The notes under the pieces: generated by a model
What the model was told of the DNA's origin: nothing
The model's database searches: none
The model's input: only the letters and a program-made list of their open reading frames with translations
Made by a program: the position numbers and the translations under genes
Part shown: positions 1 to 17,858 of the stretch, piece after piece
How the letters are laid out: each line of letters starts with the position of its first letter
Numbering within the stretch: position 1 is the stretch's first letter
NCBI GenBank assembly: GCA_015486705.1
Contig: WFRG01000069.1
Span: 1-23,681, forward strand
Length of the DNA: 23,681 nt
Source of the DNA: Hippea sp.
GTDB lineage: Bacteria; Campylobacterota_A; Desulfurellia; Desulfurellales; Hippeaceae
Reading direction: 5' to 3'

Positions 1-440
1 AACACAAAGTTATGCCTATCTAAAAAATCCTTTGCCTCAGCCTTTTTCAAATTTATCGGTATTCCACACGCTTCAAGCACATCAGCAGAGCCAGACTTTG
101 AGCTCACAGCTTTGTTGCCATGCTTTGCAACAGGCACAAACAAACTGCAAACAATGGCCGATGCTGTCGAGATGTTAAATGTATTTTTGCCATCCCCTCC
201 CGTGCCGCATGTATCAAGAAGGTCATAGTCAAGTTTAAGTCCATCTGCATGTTTCTTCAAAGACGAAGCGGCTGCTGCTATCTCCTCTGCTGTCTCGCCT
301 TTATCTGACAAAAGAACAAGAAATTCCGCCATACTATTATCATCAACCGAACCGTCCAACATGTTGTCAAAAACGGCCTCCACAAGCTCAAAACCCAAAT
401 TCTCGCCTTTTTTGAGTCTTTCAATAGCCTCAACTATCAT
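1..440 (-). CDS. trpD: Anthranilate phosphoribosyltransferase TrpD, 5' part only (cut by window edge)
   Basis: TrpD transfers a phosphoribosyl group from PRPP to anthranilate, the second step of tryptophan synthesis. The reading frame is open from the ATG at 440 down to base 1 (146 codons) without a stop. It begins MIVEAIERLKKGENLG and contains the family's PRPP-binding glycine loop (DTCGTGGDGKNTFNIST, about residues 77-93) and the following KHGNKAVSSKSGSADVLEACG segment, with its conserved KHGN, SS.SGSADVLE pattern. The ATG lies inside the end of trpG (11-base overlap), so the two are translationally coupled. The C-terminal half lies outside the window. Identification by motif is firm. Confidence 0.93.
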   Translation of the reverse strand, partial: MIVEAIERLKKGENLGFELVEAVFDNMLDGSVDDNSMAEFLVLLSDKGETAEEIAAAASSLKKHADGLKLDYDLLDTCGTGGDGKNTFNISTASAIVCSLFVPVAKHGNKAVSSKSGSADVLEACGIPINLKKAEAKDFLDRHNFV

Positions 441-1005
441 GAACAACCCCCTTAACAAAATTTCTAACTATCTGCAGCCCAAACTCACTTGTGTAGGATT
501 CCGGATGAAACTGAACGCCAAAAATCAATAGCTTCATATTTTCTATCCCCATCACCTCACCATCAGAATTGGCAGTTGAACTAACAGAAAAATCACCTCG
601 AACACCATCAACAACTAAAGAGTGATACCTTGTCGCTTTGAAACTCTCTGGCAATCCATCAAACAATGGGCTTTTATTCAAAACCTTAATCTCATCCACC
701 TTACCGTGCATGATTTTCTTTGCCTTTCTAATTTCGAAATTAAAATAGTAACCAATAGCCTGCATACCCAAACAGACGCCAAAAATAGGTAATTTTCCTT
801 TAAAAAAATCCAAAACATCCAAAGATAGCATGGAGTTTTTTGGATGCGAAGGACCGGGTGAAATTGCAATGGCACTTAAGTCTTTAACATTTTTAACCGA
901 AGCCAAACCCTCTGTGTTTTTAAAAACCTTCACATCATCGTAAAAACCGATGTAGTGATAAAGGTTATAGGTAAACGAATCGTAGTTATCAATTAAAGCT
1001 ATCAT
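430..1005 (-). CDS. trpG: Anthranilate synthase glutamine amidotransferase subunit TrpG
   Basis: This is a class I glutamine amidotransferase of 191 residues, which supplies ammonia from glutamine to TrpE for anthranilate formation. It starts MIALIDNYDSFTYNL, typical of TrpG/PabA. The catalytic triad is visible: Cys78 in GVCLGMQAIG, and His167 and Glu169 in FHPES. The oxyanion region SPGPSHP (residues 49-55) is also present. The ATG lies 17 bases inside the end of trpE and its own end overlaps trpD, so trpE, trpG and trpD form one coupled transcript. A PabA role shared with folate synthesis cannot be excluded from sequence, but the trp context makes TrpG the main role. Length is normal for a stand-alone subunit, with no fusion to TrpD. 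Confidence 0.95.
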   Translation of the reverse strand: MIALIDNYDSFTYNLYHYIGFYDDVKVFKNTEGLASVKNVKDLSAIAISPGPSHPKNSMLSLDVLDFFKGKLPIFGVCLGMQAIGYYFNFEIRKAKKIMHGKVDEIKVLNKSPLFDGLPESFKATRYHSLVVDGVRGDFSVSSTANSDGEVMGIENMKLLIFGVQFHPESYTSEFGLQIVRNFVKGVVHDS

Positions 1006-2380
1006 CGATACCTCCCGCCTTGAGAAGTGCCTTCAGTTTGTTTATTGTTTCGAAATACTCACTCTCCGGGTTGCTATCGTAGACAATGCCGGCTCCAGCT
1101 TGAAACCTCGCTACATCACCATTAAAGATTGCCGTCCTTATGGTTATTGCCAAATCCACATTCCCAGAAAAGTCTATATAGCCAACGCAACCGCCATAAG
1201 CTCCCCTCGGATGGGTTTCTATTTCATCGATTATCTCAATAGCCCTGACCTTCGGAGCGCCACTCAAAGTCCCTGCTGGAAATGTGTTCGATATGACATC
1301 CATGACAGACATATCGTTGTTAATGTCAGCCTCAACATTTGACGTAAGATGAACAACATGGGAGTAAACCTCAGGTCTCATGAATGATGTAACGGTAACA
1401 GCCCCTGGTGATGAGATCCGCGCAAGGTCGTTTCGTGCAAGGTCAACAAGCATAATGTGCTCTGCTCTCTCCTTCTCATCGTTTAAAAGTTCACTCTTAA
1501 CAGCTTCTAAATTCTCGGTTTTTGGCTTTGTTCCAGCAATAGGCCTGATTGTTGCCACATTTCCTCTGAGTTTCAAGTGGATTTCGGGAGACGAGCCAGC
1601 CATACAGAAATCATTGTGCTTAAAATAAAACATGTAAGGAGACGGATTTATGCGCCTCAAATTCCTGTAGAACCCAAACGGATCAACACCCTTAACATCA
1701 AAAAAATTACTCAAAACAACCTGAATCGCCTCGCCATCTTCAATGAGCCCTTTTACACTTTTAACATGGCTTATAAACTTTTCTTTTGAGAACATCTGGC
1801 TCACAATTTTCGGCTTACCCTCATACCCATTAATGTGATTTTTTAGATTTTCCAATGCTGCACGCATCTCATTAATTGATTGCTGAGCCGCTTTAAAGTT
1901 CTCCTCAGGAGAAGAATTTTTATCCAGCATATGGTGATAACCCAAATAGAGCCTGTTTGTGTAGTTGTCGTAAACAAGAAACTTCTTTACCTCAAAGAAC
2001 AGCCCGTAAATATCAGGTTTTTTCTTTAAAGGCATTCTCAAAATGTCAAAAAGCTCCACAGACTCAAAAGCAAAATAACCAACATAGCCGCCTTTAAAAT
2101 CACCTAAACTTTTTGTCTCAAACACTTTCAAGGTTCTAACAAAGTCCAAATCCTCTTTTGCTCTAATCACAATGACACGCTCAGGCTCGAAACCTAAAAA
2201 AGAAAACCTGCTATAGGTTTTGTCTTCCTTTGCAGATTCAAGAAGAAACAGGTCTTCATACTCAAGCAGTTTGGAAAGGATTGAAACAGGTGTATCCAAA
2301 TCGCCTTCTATTTCCTCATAAACCACAACACTGTCATATCCACCATCCAAAGCCTTAAAAAACGCTTCCCTTAACTCCAT
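989..2380 (-). CDS. trpE: Anthranilate synthase component I TrpE
   Basis: TrpE converts chorismate plus ammonia to anthranilate, the first committed step of tryptophan synthesis, in complex with TrpG. The 463-residue protein has the N-terminal regulatory domain with the LLES motif (residues 46-49), which in this family forms part of the feedback tryptophan site. The C-terminal chorismate-binding domain shows PIAGT (TrpE type, where PabB has PIKGT), RAEHIMLVDLARND, PAGTLSGAPK and GCVGYIDFSG. I chose the ATG at 2380, because GGAGG lies five bases upstream of it. An ATG twelve bases further upstream overlaps that ribosome binding site and is unlikely. The gene sits directly behind a tandem-terminator attenuator (2399-2552). 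Confidence 0.95.
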   Translation of the reverse strand: MELREAFFKALDGGYDSVVVYEEIEGDLDTPVSILSKLLEYEDLFLLESAKEDKTYSRFSFLGFEPERVIVIRAKEDLDFVRTLKVFETKSLGDFKGGYVGYFAFESVELFDILRMPLKKKPDIYGLFFEVKKFLVYDNYTNRLYLGYHHMLDKNSSPEENFKAAQQSINEMRAALENLKNHINGYEGKPKIVSQMFSKEKFISHVKSVKGLIEDGEAIQVVLSNFFDVKGVDPFGFYRNLRRINPSPYMFYFKHNDFCMAGSSPEIHLKLRGNVATIRPIAGTKPKTENLEAVKSELLNDEKERAEHIMLVDLARNDLARISSPGAVTVTSFMRPEVYSHVVHLTSNVEADINNDMSVMDVISNTFPAGTLSGAPKVRAIEIIDEIETHPRGAYGGCVGYIDFSGNVDLAITIRTAIFNGDVARFQAGAGIVYDSNPESEYFETINKLKALLKAGGIDDSFN

Positions 2381-2398: not shown

Positions 2399-2443
2399 AA
2401 AAAAGGCCGCAAACCTTGAATTTTCTTGCCAAGGTTTGCGGCC
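2399..2443 (-). terminator. Second trp leader terminator (segments 5:6), just before trpE
   Basis: A perfect 14-bp stem (2430-2443 with 2405-2418) and an 11-base loop are followed in the transcript by six U (2404 to 2399). The U tract ends only 18 bases before the trpE ATG. Its 5' arm can instead pair with the 3' arm of the preceding terminator (see the attenuator entry), so it is probably conditional. The fold is read directly from the sequence; the regulation is inferred. Confidence 0.85.
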
Positions 2444-2447
2444 AAAT

Positions 2448-2516
2448 AAAAAAGCCGCTTACCCTCGGCAAGCTCTCTGGCTACCCTGCCAGCAAGCCCA
2501 CCAAGAATAAGCGGCT
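2448..2516 (-). terminator. First trp leader terminator (segments 3:4)
   Basis: In the transcript, AGCCGCUUA (2516-2508) pairs with UAAGCGGCU (2461-2453), nine perfect base pairs at the base. The interior continues as a long stem with several G-U pairs (CUUGGUGGGCUU with GAGCUUGCCGAG) and closes with a CUGGC/GCCAG apical hairpin. Six U follow (2453-2448). This is a strong, long intrinsic terminator about 30 bases downstream of the leader peptide stop codon. Its apical part contains a segment complementary to the upstream hairpin, as expected of a transcription attenuator. Confidence 0.85.
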
Positions 2517-2542
2517 CTTACGACAAAAAGCAGGGTAGCTTT

Positions 2543-2605
2543 TTAGCTACCCCACCACCACTGATTACATTCTATCGTCAAAGAGACAAACCTAAACTCA
2601 AACAT
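2543..2605 (-). CDS. trpL: trp leader peptide TrpL (20 residues, Trp-Trp-Trp)
   Basis: A short reading frame ATG...TAA encodes MFEFRFVSLTIECNQWWWGS, with three consecutive TGG codons (2560-2552) five codons before its stop. The stop codon lies in the loop/stem of the first leader hairpin. Runs of Trp codons at this position are the hallmark of ribosome-mediated trp attenuation, as in enterobacterial trpL. Its product should have no function apart from its translation. No convincing ribosome binding site precedes the ATG at 2605, and the predicted transcription start is about one base upstream, so initiation may be leaderless. A TTG at 2581 in the same frame, preceded by AGG at a fitting distance, is an alternative start. 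Too short for ordinary gene finders. Confidence 0.85.
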   Translation of the reverse strand: MFEFRFVSLTIECNQWWWGS

Positions 2606-15310: not shown

Positions 15311-15673
15311 ATGAGCATAAAGTTTGTTAAATTAGTAACAGGTGAGACAGTAATTGGAACATACAATCCAGAAAAAAATGGAATTGAAGACGTAGCCCAA
15401 ATTCAGGTTATACCAGGCTCAGCAGGAATTCAAATAGCAATTTTACCCTACGGATTTCCCTTTGAAGAAAAAATTACAGGGTTTGTTAGTATGGATAAAG
15501 TTATTTATGAGTTCAAAAAGGTACCAGAGGATTTAGAAAGTAAATACCACGAAGCAAAAAGCAATATAAAAATAAGCTCTGCAATGCCAAATGCAGACCT
15601 AAACGTTGGAATGGATGAGCAAAGAAGCCAAGAAAAGGTTGTTGATATAGAGAGTTTGTTCAGAAAATCCTAA
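15311..15673 (+). CDS. LSm-like small protein (uncharacterised)
   Basis: A 120-residue protein I cannot assign by name. Its first 75 residues show the pattern of Sm-like (LSm) proteins known from marine phages: VKLVTGETVIGTY, a strand pair with QVIPGSAGIQIAILPYGFPF, then MDKVIYEFKKVPEDLESKYHEA, where the phage proteins have a strand followed by a helix. A low-complexity polar tail (about residues 85-120) ends DIESLFRKS. No signal peptide or membrane segment. It starts two bases after the yraN stop and its TAA overlaps the moeA stop on the other strand. RNA binding is only inferred from the fold resemblance, and the match is from memory. Confidence 0.6.
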   Translation: MSIKFVKLVTGETVIGTYNPEKNGIEDVAQIQVIPGSAGIQIAILPYGFPFEEKITGFVSMDKVIYEFKKVPEDLESKYHEAKSNIKISSAMPNADLNVGMDEQRSQEKVVDIESLFRKS

Positions 15674-16836
15674 TCGTTAAACAGAACAAGTGGCAGTTGT
15701 TGGTCAGCCTCAACACTGCCCCTTTCTTCCTCTATCCCCACAAAACCATCGGCAATGGCTGTGGAATAGAAGTTATCTGTCTTTTGGGAGCCAGCGGATT
15801 TGGCGCAAAACAATCCATCCTTGAATTCTAAGTTGACCCGGTTGAAGTAGAATTTGCCCTCCCTCGATCTCATAGGCTCTGCCAATACACACGTATAATC
15901 AAAATCTCTCTCCTTTAAACCGGCAAGCCTATACAACATGGGTTTTAAGTACACATAGGCCGTGGCATACAAGGCACTTGGCCAACCAGGCATACCAAAA
16001 AAGAGCTTATCCCTAACTACAGCCAAGACAGCTGGCCTTCCGGGTTTTATCGTCGTTGCATCAAACAGAAACTCAGAGTTTGGGATTTCACCTAATATCG
16101 ACTTTACAAAGTCCTTACTACCCATACTCACTCCACCCGTTGTAATCAGAAGATCGCACCTATCTAAGGCGTAAGATATAGCTTTTTTCAATTCATCCTG
16201 TTTGTCCCTTACATGACCAAAATACACGGGTTCACAAAGCCACTTTTTGATAAGCCCGTCCAAAATGAAGTAGTTTGCATTGTATACGCTGTGTTTTTTC
16301 GCATGTTCACCAGGATAAATCACCTCATCACCCGTTGTAATGATTCCAACCATAGGTTTTCGTCTAACCTTCAACAAACTTACGCCGCAATAAGCAAGTA
16401 GAGCCCTTTTTCTTACGCTAACCCTTTCACCCTCTTTTAAAATCACTTGCCCCTTTTTTACCTCTATGCCCTTATGCGTAAAGTTCCTCTCATCCTCTAC
16501 ACGCTTCAACAGTCTCAAGTGATTACCATCTAACTTTACTATCTCAACCTCTGCAACAGCCCTAACCCTCTCGGGTATGGGAAAACCTGTGTTTATCCTG
16601 ATACAGGAGCAATCCTTTAGATCATTCTCCTCTTCAACAACACGGTATTCCTCACAGCCACCAACCAACCCATACCCATCCATTGCAGAACGCAAAAAGG
16701 TGGGTATGTCTATGTCTGATCTCACATCCTCAAAGGCAACCTTGCCCAAAGCATCGTATACATAAACAAAATCAAAGCCATCCACAGGCTCGGTATTCTT
16801 CTTTATCAACTCCAAAGCGTCTTTAACCTTAACCAT
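15670..16836 (-). CDS. moeA: Molybdopterin molybdenumtransferase MoeA
   Basis: A 388-residue enzyme that inserts molybdate (or tungstate) into adenylylated molybdopterin to make the active cofactor. Domain order is normal: N-terminal IDIPTFLRSAMDGYGL, the RINTGFPIP segment, a linker VKKGQVILKEGE, the MoCF domain GIITTGDEVIYPG, LLITTGGVSMGSKDFV, KPGRPAVLAV and FGMPGWPSA, and a C-terminal beta domain. The ATG at 16836 overlaps the upstream gene's stop (TGATG); a GTG three bases upstream is also possible. It is last in a six-gene operon and converges on the LSm-like gene with overlapping stop codons and no terminator that I can see. Confidence 0.93.
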   Translation of the reverse strand: MVKVKDALELIKKNTEPVDGFDFVYVYDALGKVAFEDVRSDIDIPTFLRSAMDGYGLVGGCEEYRVVEEENDLKDCSCIRINTGFPIPERVRAVAEVEIVKLDGNHLRLLKRVEDERNFTHKGIEVKKGQVILKEGERVSVRKRALLAYCGVSLLKVRRKPMVGIITTGDEVIYPGEHAKKHSVYNANYFILDGLIKKWLCEPVYFGHVRDKQDELKKAISYALDRCDLLITTGGVSMGSKDFVKSILGEIPNSEFLFDATTIKPGRPAVLAVVRDKLFFGMPGWPSALYATAYVYLKPMLYRLAGLKERDFDYTCVLAEPMRSREGKFYFNRVNLEFKDGLFCAKSAGSQKTDNFYSTAIADGFVGIEEERGSVEADQQLPLVLFND

Positions 16837-17858
16837 CACACTTTACCAAAAGGACAAAACGGATACACACAAACCTTACAAAAATGACACAGACCACCTA
16901 TTGCATACTCGGCTATCTCTTTTCTTGTAATCCTATCCTTTGCCAATAGCCTCGGCAACATTATATCAAATGCGCTCGCTTTGTAAAACAGAGCTCCAGC
17001 AGGAACAACGCAAACGGTGGTGTCGCCAAAATAGCCGATTGTTAGGTTATTCGCAGGCTGTATAGGATTTCCTTCCCTAATAAACTTGACTCCCGCCTTC
17101 TTTAAAGCCTTCTTTGTAACATCATCTGGATCAACACTTGAACCACCCGTAACAATCACGAGCTCATGATCGGCAAACTTCAAAAAAGCATTCTTTATCT
17201 CCCCAATATCGTCCCTCACTATCGTGTAATCAGCGAGCTCAACGTCGAATTGGGCAAGCTTCCTCTTTATAAGCGGCCTAAACCTATCCTCAACAATACC
17301 GTCGTAAACCTCGCTGCCCGTGATAATCAGCGCCGCCTCTTTGATCTTATACTCCTCAACCCAAATTAAAGGTTTATCAGCAATAGACAACGCTCTATTC
17401 AAAACCGATTTTTTCGCTATAAGTGGTATTATCCTAAAAGCCGCAAGCTGTTGTCCTTTTTTTACAGGAAAATTGTTATGTATTGTAGGAAAAGATGTAA
17501 CAGACATGGAATTTAACTTTATTACCCGTTTCCTATCCAATTTAAATAATCCATCGATTTTAGATTTAAACGTAATCTTGCCTTCTGAGGGTTTTTTACC
17601 AAATTCTATATTTTTTCCAGCCAATCGTGGAGCTAGTGTAATAGAAAACTCATCTTCATGCACATCATCTTGATCCAAAACAAGCTTGTAAATATAATTT
17701 TTACCAATACTTTTTAAAAGAGGAACATCCTCTTTGGTTATAATATGACCACGTTTAAAAAAAGCACCTTTATAACCTTCTTCAGGAGATATTTTTGTAA
17801 AATCATGGGGAATTTCCTCCCCTATAGCTTTCTCAACAGGAATTTTTATCTTTTTCAC
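16836..17858 (-). CDS. Molybdopterin-binding (MoCF) domain protein with Cys-rich tail
   Basis: A 340-residue cytosolic protein. The N-terminal 150 residues have MoeA-like features ([35 protein letters not shown]), and the rest is a MoaB/Mog/CinA-type molybdopterin-binding domain with [49 protein letters not shown] and VVPAGALFY. It ends with four cysteines (Cys324, 327, 330, 335; C-x2-C-x2-C-x4-C), a plausible metal or Fe-S site not found in MoeA. Such proteins are annotated only as molybdopterin-binding; the exact reaction is unknown. The start is a GTG overlapping the ATPase gene's TGA by four bases, and the end overlaps moeA. Confidence 0.82.

Follow-up and report, generated by a model that had tools for sequence, protein, structure and literature searches.

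How many terminators can a single stalled ribosome put out of action? This question is raised by the DNA in front of trpE in a contig of Hippea sp. (GenBank assembly GCA_015486705.1, contig WFRG01000069.1), where a sequence-only reading had proposed a trp attenuator with two tandem terminators, both of which one stalling event would disable in succession. Herein the window means the whole stretch of DNA that was analysed, 23,681 nucleotides in length, and the trp genes and all parts of their leader lie on its minus strand. Hippea stands under Campylobacterota in the NCBI taxonomy, which is the phylum of Campylobacter, and we take the Desulfurella/Hippea group to be thermophilic and sulfur-reducing.

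Anatomy of the trp leader in the window

The regulated gene is trpE (989..2380), whose ATG at 2380 has a GGAGG directly 5' of it; trpG (430..1005) follows, and then the start of trpD, which runs past the end of the window. The best NCBIfam model for the trpE product is trpE_most, with a score under the curated cut-off, while the trpG product is trpG_papA above its cut-off and the truncated trpD fragment stays below. Upstream of the leader, a sugar-kinase-like gene has its own terminator at 2690-2654, separate from the leader terminators T1 and T2, which are thus not needed to end that gene. The kinase terminator overlaps the end of its own ORF (stop at 2663), and its loop region is shorter in the related locus L001. 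Elsewhere in the window, at 15670-17858, two neighbouring ORFs resemble by eye molybdopterin-biosynthesis (MoeA-like) genes.

Transcription of the leader is predicted to start from a sigma-70-type promoter at 2641-2613, consisting of TTGACT (2641-2636), a spacer of 17 nt and TAAACT (2618-2613). The leader ATG is found 7 nt downstream of the -10 box, and a start site about 7 nt past that box would place the 5' end of the RNA at the ATG or immediately before it. In fact, in all 19 leaders with tandem terminators (the window and 18 relatives, described below) a TTGAC box is followed at 15-17 nt by a -10-like box and, 6-10 nt past the latter, by an in-frame ATG (the second ATG in L036 and L037). 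Judged by this promoter-to-ATG spacing, the start of the leader peptide is probably leaderless, and conserved as such in the 19 tandem leaders.

The predicted leader peptide ORF (2605-2543) has 20 codons and encodes MFEFRFVSLTIECNQWWWGS, with the C-terminal residues NQWWWGS before the stop. Its three tandem Trp codons (2560-2552), the putative stall site, are overlapped by segment 1 (2556-2545), so that the footprint of a stalled ribosome would cover this segment. Segment 2 (2540-2529) is the partner either of segment 1, in a 12 bp hairpin, or of segment 3 (2490-2480, GGCAGGGUAGC), which forms the apex of T1; the 2:3 pairing joins 2539-2529 with 2490-2480 by 10 Watson-Crick pairs and one G-U. 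Within the 2:3 loop a local hairpin (2521-2492, GUAAG..CUUGC plus CCGCU..GGUGG) would occupy the base of the T1 5' arm in the antiterminated fold. T1 itself, the 3:4 hairpin, extends over 2519-2448, with a stem at 2519-2450 (26+5 = 31 bp in the whole-leader fold), a U6 tract at 2453-2448 and an energy of -49.5 kcal/mol for its 29-pair core. T2, the 5:6 hairpin, extends over 2443-2399, with a stem at 2443-2405 (15 bp including one G-U), a U6 tract at 2404-2399 and an energy of -25.6 kcal/mol. Segment 4 (2472-2453), the T1 3' arm, can pair by way of 2472-2463 and 2458-2453 with segment 5 (2443-2425), which comprises the T2 5' arm and the first loop bases: the first part joins 2472-2463 with 2434-2425 (10 bp, one of them G-U), and the second part joins 2458-2453 with 2443-2438 (5 Watson-Crick pairs and one G-U). 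The Trp-codon leader, the two terminators, each with its U6, and the competing 2:3 and 4:5 pairings are present as the sequence-only reading had claimed.

The whole leader folds with -103.9 kcal/mol against -62.2 +/- 4.5 kcal/mol in shuffled sequences (z = -9.25; 0/200 as good). A consensus terminator scan, in which loops of 3-8 only were allowed, shows of T1 just a small inner hairpin and misses T2 because of this limited loop range. The same scan scored the 1:2 hairpin (2556-2525), which is followed by a U run, as terminator-like, and this hairpin may act as a pause site that couples polymerase and ribosome. At 2544-2525 segment 2 can also form a hairpin of its own, AAAAAGC-UACCCU-GCUUUUU, whose loop is the exact complement of the six-base T1 loop AGGGUA (2487-2482); a matching pair of loops was seen by eye in L030, and a kissing-loop start of 2:3 from the segment 2 and T1 loops is possible. 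The whole window gave no match to Rfam at the gathering threshold, and below it the stretch 2380-2660 has 11 matches with E values of up to 5, none of them an amino-acid leader. The best of these puts RybB on T2 (2397-2458; E 0.016), and with 22.5 bits against a cut-off of 40 a relationship of T2 to RybB was judged to be chance.

The anatomy, the complementarities and their conservation point to a ribosome-mediated attenuator of trpEGD with serial antitermination. We hold this reading to be fairly probable; its response to tryptophan, the stops at the two sites and the sequence of steps would be as follows. With ample tryptophan the ribosome would traverse the leader ORF and segment 2 would be masked or paired to segment 1, so that T1 would form and halt most polymerases, and T2 would halt those slipping past. 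With scarce tryptophan the ribosome would stall at the Trp codons and cover segment 1; segment 2 would then pair with segment 3, the hairpin in the 2:3 loop would occupy the base of the T1 5' arm, and T1 would be missed. Segment 4, left without a partner, would pair with segment 5 once the latter is made, and T2, having lost its 5' arm, would be missed as well. A single stall would in this way disable both terminators in succession.

Conservation of the layout and of the pairings

A search with TrpE gave 23 loci, including six from Desulfurellales/Hippea metagenome bins, and a survey of the class covered 25 genomes (which are also all those reached in the phylum), of which 20 have TrpE and five gave no match. 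The leaders examined were 20, namely the window and 19 others; L043, cut before the leader, and the secondary TrpE-like loci L044-L046 were left out. A WWW peptide followed by T1 and T2, each terminator with a U tract, is present in 19 of the 20 trpE leaders of the Desulfurella/Hippea group, that is, besides the window, in 18 of the 19 group genomes that have TrpE and a readable leader, and the layout persists down to 41% TrpE identity. T1 energies range from -24 to -50 kcal/mol and T2 energies from -18 to -32 kcal/mol in these tandem leaders. The remaining leader, L042 (genome G020; 38% TrpE identity), combines a GWW peptide with just one U-tract terminator upstream of 1501, and is possibly an ancestral or reduced form. 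Outside the group, no WW leader was seen within 400 bases upstream of 17 TrpE relatives (L007-L023), among which the true upstream stretch is lacking for L015, L018 and L023. At one of these loci, L019 from a Streptococcus bin, a pair of terminator-like hairpins separated by about 150 nt lies some 45-200 bases upstream of the trpE-like gene, and a WW peptide is lacking. A pattern search of the same 25 genomes across the phylum gave one match, the pattern being too strict.

The sequence-only reading had staked its chain of pairings on related species keeping both complementarities, and all 19 tandem leaders have 2:3 as well as 4:5, with compensatory changes. The best duplex between segments 4 and 5 has -17 to -32 kcal/mol in 19/19 leaders, and in L030 it consists of 21 uninterrupted pairs. 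To ask how often such a duplex arises by chance, the pairs and loop bases of T2 were permuted with the fold kept, in versions with and without pair flips, 2000 times each. Across the 19 leaders at most 118/2000 randomised T2 sequences match the real 4:5 with flips, and at most 161/2000 without (the maximum without flips being in L033); with flips the count is at most 3/2000 in 10 of the 19, and for the window 0/2000 are as good in both versions. A harder randomisation, of the T2 loop only, gave a graded result, where the number as good in 2000 is 22 for L035, 27 for L030, 52 for L041, 76 for L040, 124 for L039, 157 for L002, 160 for L031, 185 for the window, 279 for L036, 423 for L033, 469 for L003, 476 for L032, 688 for L001, 1185 for L034 and 1674 for L037, and reaches 2000/2000 in L004, L005, L006 and L038.

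Swapping the arms of 4:5 across lineages gave poorer duplexes for lineage A (0 or 1 of 13 as good), L030 (0/18 both ways) and L041 (0/16 both ways), intermediate results for lineages B, E, F and L036, and many equally good non-cognate partners in lineage C, L037, L038, L039 and L040. When 248 genomic terminators were used as partners, between 1 and 83 of the 5' halves, depending on the leader, reached the 4:5 energy with segment 4, and between 0 and 16 of the 3' halves did so with segment 5; long 5' halves give this comparison a bias, as does the presence of the G014 trp leader among the terminators, and the T2-preserving randomisation was given more weight.

Covariation is seen at individual positions. 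In the alignment one base of segment 4 is C in the window, L001 and L002 and U in L003, L031 and L032, and its partner base in segment 5, which is G in L001-L003 as in the window, has changed to A in L031 and L032; this gives the series C-G, U-G, U-A with L003 as the U-G intermediate; according to the folds, the T1 partner of that segment 4 base remains G. For ten leaders (lineages B, C, D, E, F and H) the pairs could be counted in a fixed register; the window's lineage, whose six leaders have an internal loop, and L039-L041 have no gapless register and were left out. In this register 79 of 100 cells pair, as against 56, 44 and 37 when one arm is slid by 1, 2 and 3, and 7 of the 10 columns vary on both sides (5, 3 and 6 when slid). 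Permutation of whole arms reaches 79 paired cells in 50/5000 cases, a figure to be taken as support and not as a probability, the leaders being related.

T1 and T2 are alike at their start, since GCCG, or nearly so, opens both in 16 leaders other than L039-L041. Among terminator-like hairpins of two relatives, GCCG occurs within the first eight bases in 6/176 (the trp T1 and T2 lie in that stretch) and in 1/91, and by this rarity an artefact of generic terminators is unlikely. With hairpins detected at -15 kcal/mol and a TTTTT tract, five same-strand pairs no more than 110 nt apart were found in 800 kb, and both members reach -18 kcal/mol or lower only in the G014 trp leader. The 4:5 pairing is conserved, yet partly a consequence of the stem sequence common to T1 and T2.

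The 2:3 pairing has energies of -14 to -29 kcal/mol, and it is better than randomised 1:2 hairpins allow in 17 of the 19 leaders (at most 81/2000 as good; 1/2000 in the window). It is present in 19/19, but in L039 (566/2000) and L040 (232/2000) it is no better than chance. Non-cognate partners are often equal or better, for example 17/17 in L034 and 14/16 in L038. Covariation is found here too, UACCC/GGGUA in the window and L001-L003 being replaced by UAUCC/GGAUA in L005, L006, L036 and L037.

Proposed escape from the first terminator and rival explanations

That 2:3 disables T1, as had been claimed, could hold for 2:3 only together with a further hairpin. By itself 2:3 contacts just the top of T1, which could still form at its base, in what would formally be a pseudoknot. 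In folds of the RNA that lies between the ribosome edge and the 3' end of segment 3, 2:3 encloses a further hairpin, which in 16 of the 19 leaders pairs part of the first ten bases of the T1 5' arm locally (2 of the ten in L037, 5 to 8 elsewhere); in L005 it is ACCGCC-UCA-GGCGGU. In L039-L041 seven of those ten bases are paired, none of them locally. The first antiterminator could thus be 2:3 plus the enclosed hairpin tying up the base of the T1 5' arm, as these folds suggest.

At the completion of T1 in the window the minimum fold is T1 (-52.7 kcal/mol) and not the first antiterminator (-29.9 kcal/mol), T1 being about 20 kcal/mol the stronger; T1 alone is about equal to the antiterminator in energy only in L039-L041. 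The escape from T1 must therefore be kinetic, and 4:5 would then lock the escape in. For the window 4:5 has -28.6 kcal/mol, which with the first antiterminator makes a total of -58.5 kcal/mol. For RNA that starts at the edge of a Trp3-stalled ribosome and extends through segment 5, the minimum fold contains 2:3 together with 4:5 in 8/19 leaders, namely the window and 7 others, and is still T1 in 11/19.

Co-transcriptional folding, which the earlier reading had proposed as a check, was simulated by a home-made DrTransformer-like script, crude and limited to nested structures, so that it holds no pseudoknots of the kind that the T1 base and 2:3 would form. The window was run at a k0 of 1e5, six leaders at 1e6 (24 runs) and all 19 at 1e7, the fastest (95 runs). 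At 1e5, at or just past the T1 U tract of the window, the T1 structure reaches at most 0.63 without ribosome and at most 0.52 with a Trp2 footprint, and with a Trp3 or stop footprint it is absent among the structures listed. At 1e6, T1 is off at Trp3 in 5/6 leaders and on at the stop in 4/6; the window has T1 under a Trp2 stall but lacks it when the ribosome is at the stop, the opposite of the prediction. At 1e7, T1 stays below 0.5 under a Trp3 stall in 16/19 leaders and reaches at least 0.5 with the ribosome at the stop in 15/19, both states being correct in 12/19; without ribosome it is on in 10/19. The expected T1 switch is thus reproduced in these 12 leaders and fails in the window, since at 1e7 the T1 of the window and of L001-L003 never rises to 0.25, whatever the ribosome state; in L030-L032 T1 forms despite the stall. 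Under the Trp3 stall both terminators are off in 8/19, and T2 still forms in 9/19. When T2 was randomised, it formed in 12/18 runs against 0/6 native leaders, which had been preselected for T2 off, and in 8/18 segment 4 found a partner in the random T2 as well, so that this control is not clean. Altogether the simulation offers weak evidence, and is proof in neither direction.

Such a persistence of simulated T2 in nine leaders would suit a single-step trp attenuator with a fail-safe, in which regulation is confined to T1. T2 would then serve as a backup, or be what is left of a duplicated T1 stem, and would owe its complementarity with segment 4 to the shared stem. The GCCG common to T1 and T2 in 16 leaders, the equal pairing of non-cognate 4:5 arms that is frequent in lineage C, L037, L038, L039 and L040, and the T2 loop that contributes nothing to 4:5 in L004, L005, L006 and L038 are all consistent with this explanation. 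However, the shared stem is kept inside lineages while its sequence differs among them, which needs selection or gene conversion; in L030 and in the window's lineage 4:5 takes in 3-4 bases that T2 leaves unpaired; and the segment 4 U of L003, L031 and L032 is matched in L031 and L032 by a change in segment 5, not in segment 3. Moreover, if T1 were regulated but a strong T2 always terminated, the operon would be expected to stay off. We regard the fail-safe explanation as unlikely.

Two further explanations would each give the pair of terminators another task. They could mainly end upstream transcription or block read-through into trp, without any sensing of tryptophan, as two strong terminators in an intergenic region would allow; but the upstream gene already has the terminator at 2690-2654, and the gene 5' of the leader varies (kinase-like in the window, a tRNA-Arg gene in L032) while promoter, WWW peptide, T1 and T2 stay linked ahead of trpE in 19/20 leaders, and we find this explanation hardly credible. 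Alternatively each terminator could have a signal or level of its own to respond to, T1 for instance the stalling by Trp-tRNA and T2 a protein or translation near trpE, for which the position of T2 just 5' of the trpE ribosome-binding site and the known tandem two-signal attenuator of mgtCBR (PMC3641672) may be adduced. Against such a two-input switch, the other minus-strand ORFs of at least 20 aa in the leader are just two, TTG-started, of 24 and 38 aa, which extend from T1/T2 into trpE and have no codon run; Rfam gave no match at gathering, the sub-threshold RybB being judged chance; and 4:5 already links T2 to the state of T1 without extra input. A switch with two inputs seems very improbable. 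Serial antitermination, with its reliance on one stalled ribosome, is the reading that we carry into the comparison below.

Comparison with known attenuators

In E. coli the trpL leader, ahead of trpE, has a peptide with tandem Trp codons, a 1:2 protector, a 2:3 antiterminator and a 3:4 terminator. The Hippea leader shares with it the tandem Trp codons, the scheme of 1:2, 2:3 and 3:4 and the position before trpE, as an ORF with Trp codons is found between promoter and trpE together with mutually exclusive 1:2, 2:3 and 3:4 and an intrinsic terminator. In contrast to the four segments and one terminator of trpL, it has six segments, two terminators and an additional 4:5 antiterminator, its first terminator is much longer and its leader peptide is apparently leaderless; two U-tract hairpins, instead of the one of the classical four-segment attenuator, are present in 19/20 leaders.

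A leaderless peptide and a single Trp codon are known from other trp leaders. In Sinorhizobium meliloti the trpLE(G) RNA begins at the ATG of trpL, whose peptide is leaderless (PMC7298713), and both are trp attenuators with a leaderless peptide, predicted in the case of Hippea; unlike the Hippea leader, the legend in PMC7298713 names one terminator hairpin and mentions no chain. The TrpL of Campylobacter jejuni, reported only from C. jejuni, C. coli and C. doylei among the genomes searched in PMC3847290, is likewise a trp leader peptide, with a single Trp codon according to that paper in place of WWW.

Tandem terminators are also on record. The rimP leader has a second terminator in tandem with antiterminator potential (PMC2965389), in front of other genes, and the description given there leaves a stalling peptide unmentioned. 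Nearer to the present case is ermK of Bacillus licheniformis, a macrolide-induced attenuator described with two adjacent Rho-independent terminators (PMC4335068), which gives a precedent for a single stalling peptide with two terminators. By that description the likeness is one of anatomy, one stalling leader peptide and two adjacent intrinsic terminators, while ermK senses a drug and controls a methylase gene and the Hippea leader has Trp codons and controls trpEGD. A published description of the Hippea/Desulfurella trp leader was not found among the matches listed from the open-licence literature (titles and the beginnings of abstracts, with subscription papers mostly outside). What appears to be new, with ermK compared by its description alone, is the conserved chain of 2:3 and then 4:5, in a trp operon and across the Desulfurella/Hippea group.

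From a general point of view, such leaders may be understood as a relay, in which successive strand exchanges, 2:3 and then 4:5, carry the signal of one stall down the nascent RNA. One sensor could in this way serve a chain of several terminators, with a tighter off state, a single input and conservation as a group trait. To this wider notion we give a somewhat better than even chance. Textbook attenuation makes one decision at one terminator, and the leader of the Hippea group, if this is true, would make two chained decisions from one stall. The nascent RNA would then relay a signal from switch to switch without a second sensor, as a natural cascade; attenuation by Trp codons would be extended to a group for which the passages cited do not describe it; and a simple route toward tighter RNA switches would be at hand.

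A single sensor would also set the Hippea leader apart from the tandem systems reviewed in PMC3641672, the tandem attenuators of Salmonella mgtCBR and the tandem riboswitches of Bacillus clausii metE, which are described there as two sensors for two signals that act independently, with two predicted intrinsic terminators in metE and stem-loops unlike intrinsic terminators in mgtCBR. Each of these leaders has two switch steps. Two leader ORFs for two signals belong to the mgtCBR type, whereas in the Hippea leader one ORF with a codon run is found among the minus-strand ORFs of at least 20 aa, and the two independent sensors of mgtCBR and metE would be replaced by one stalled ribosome.
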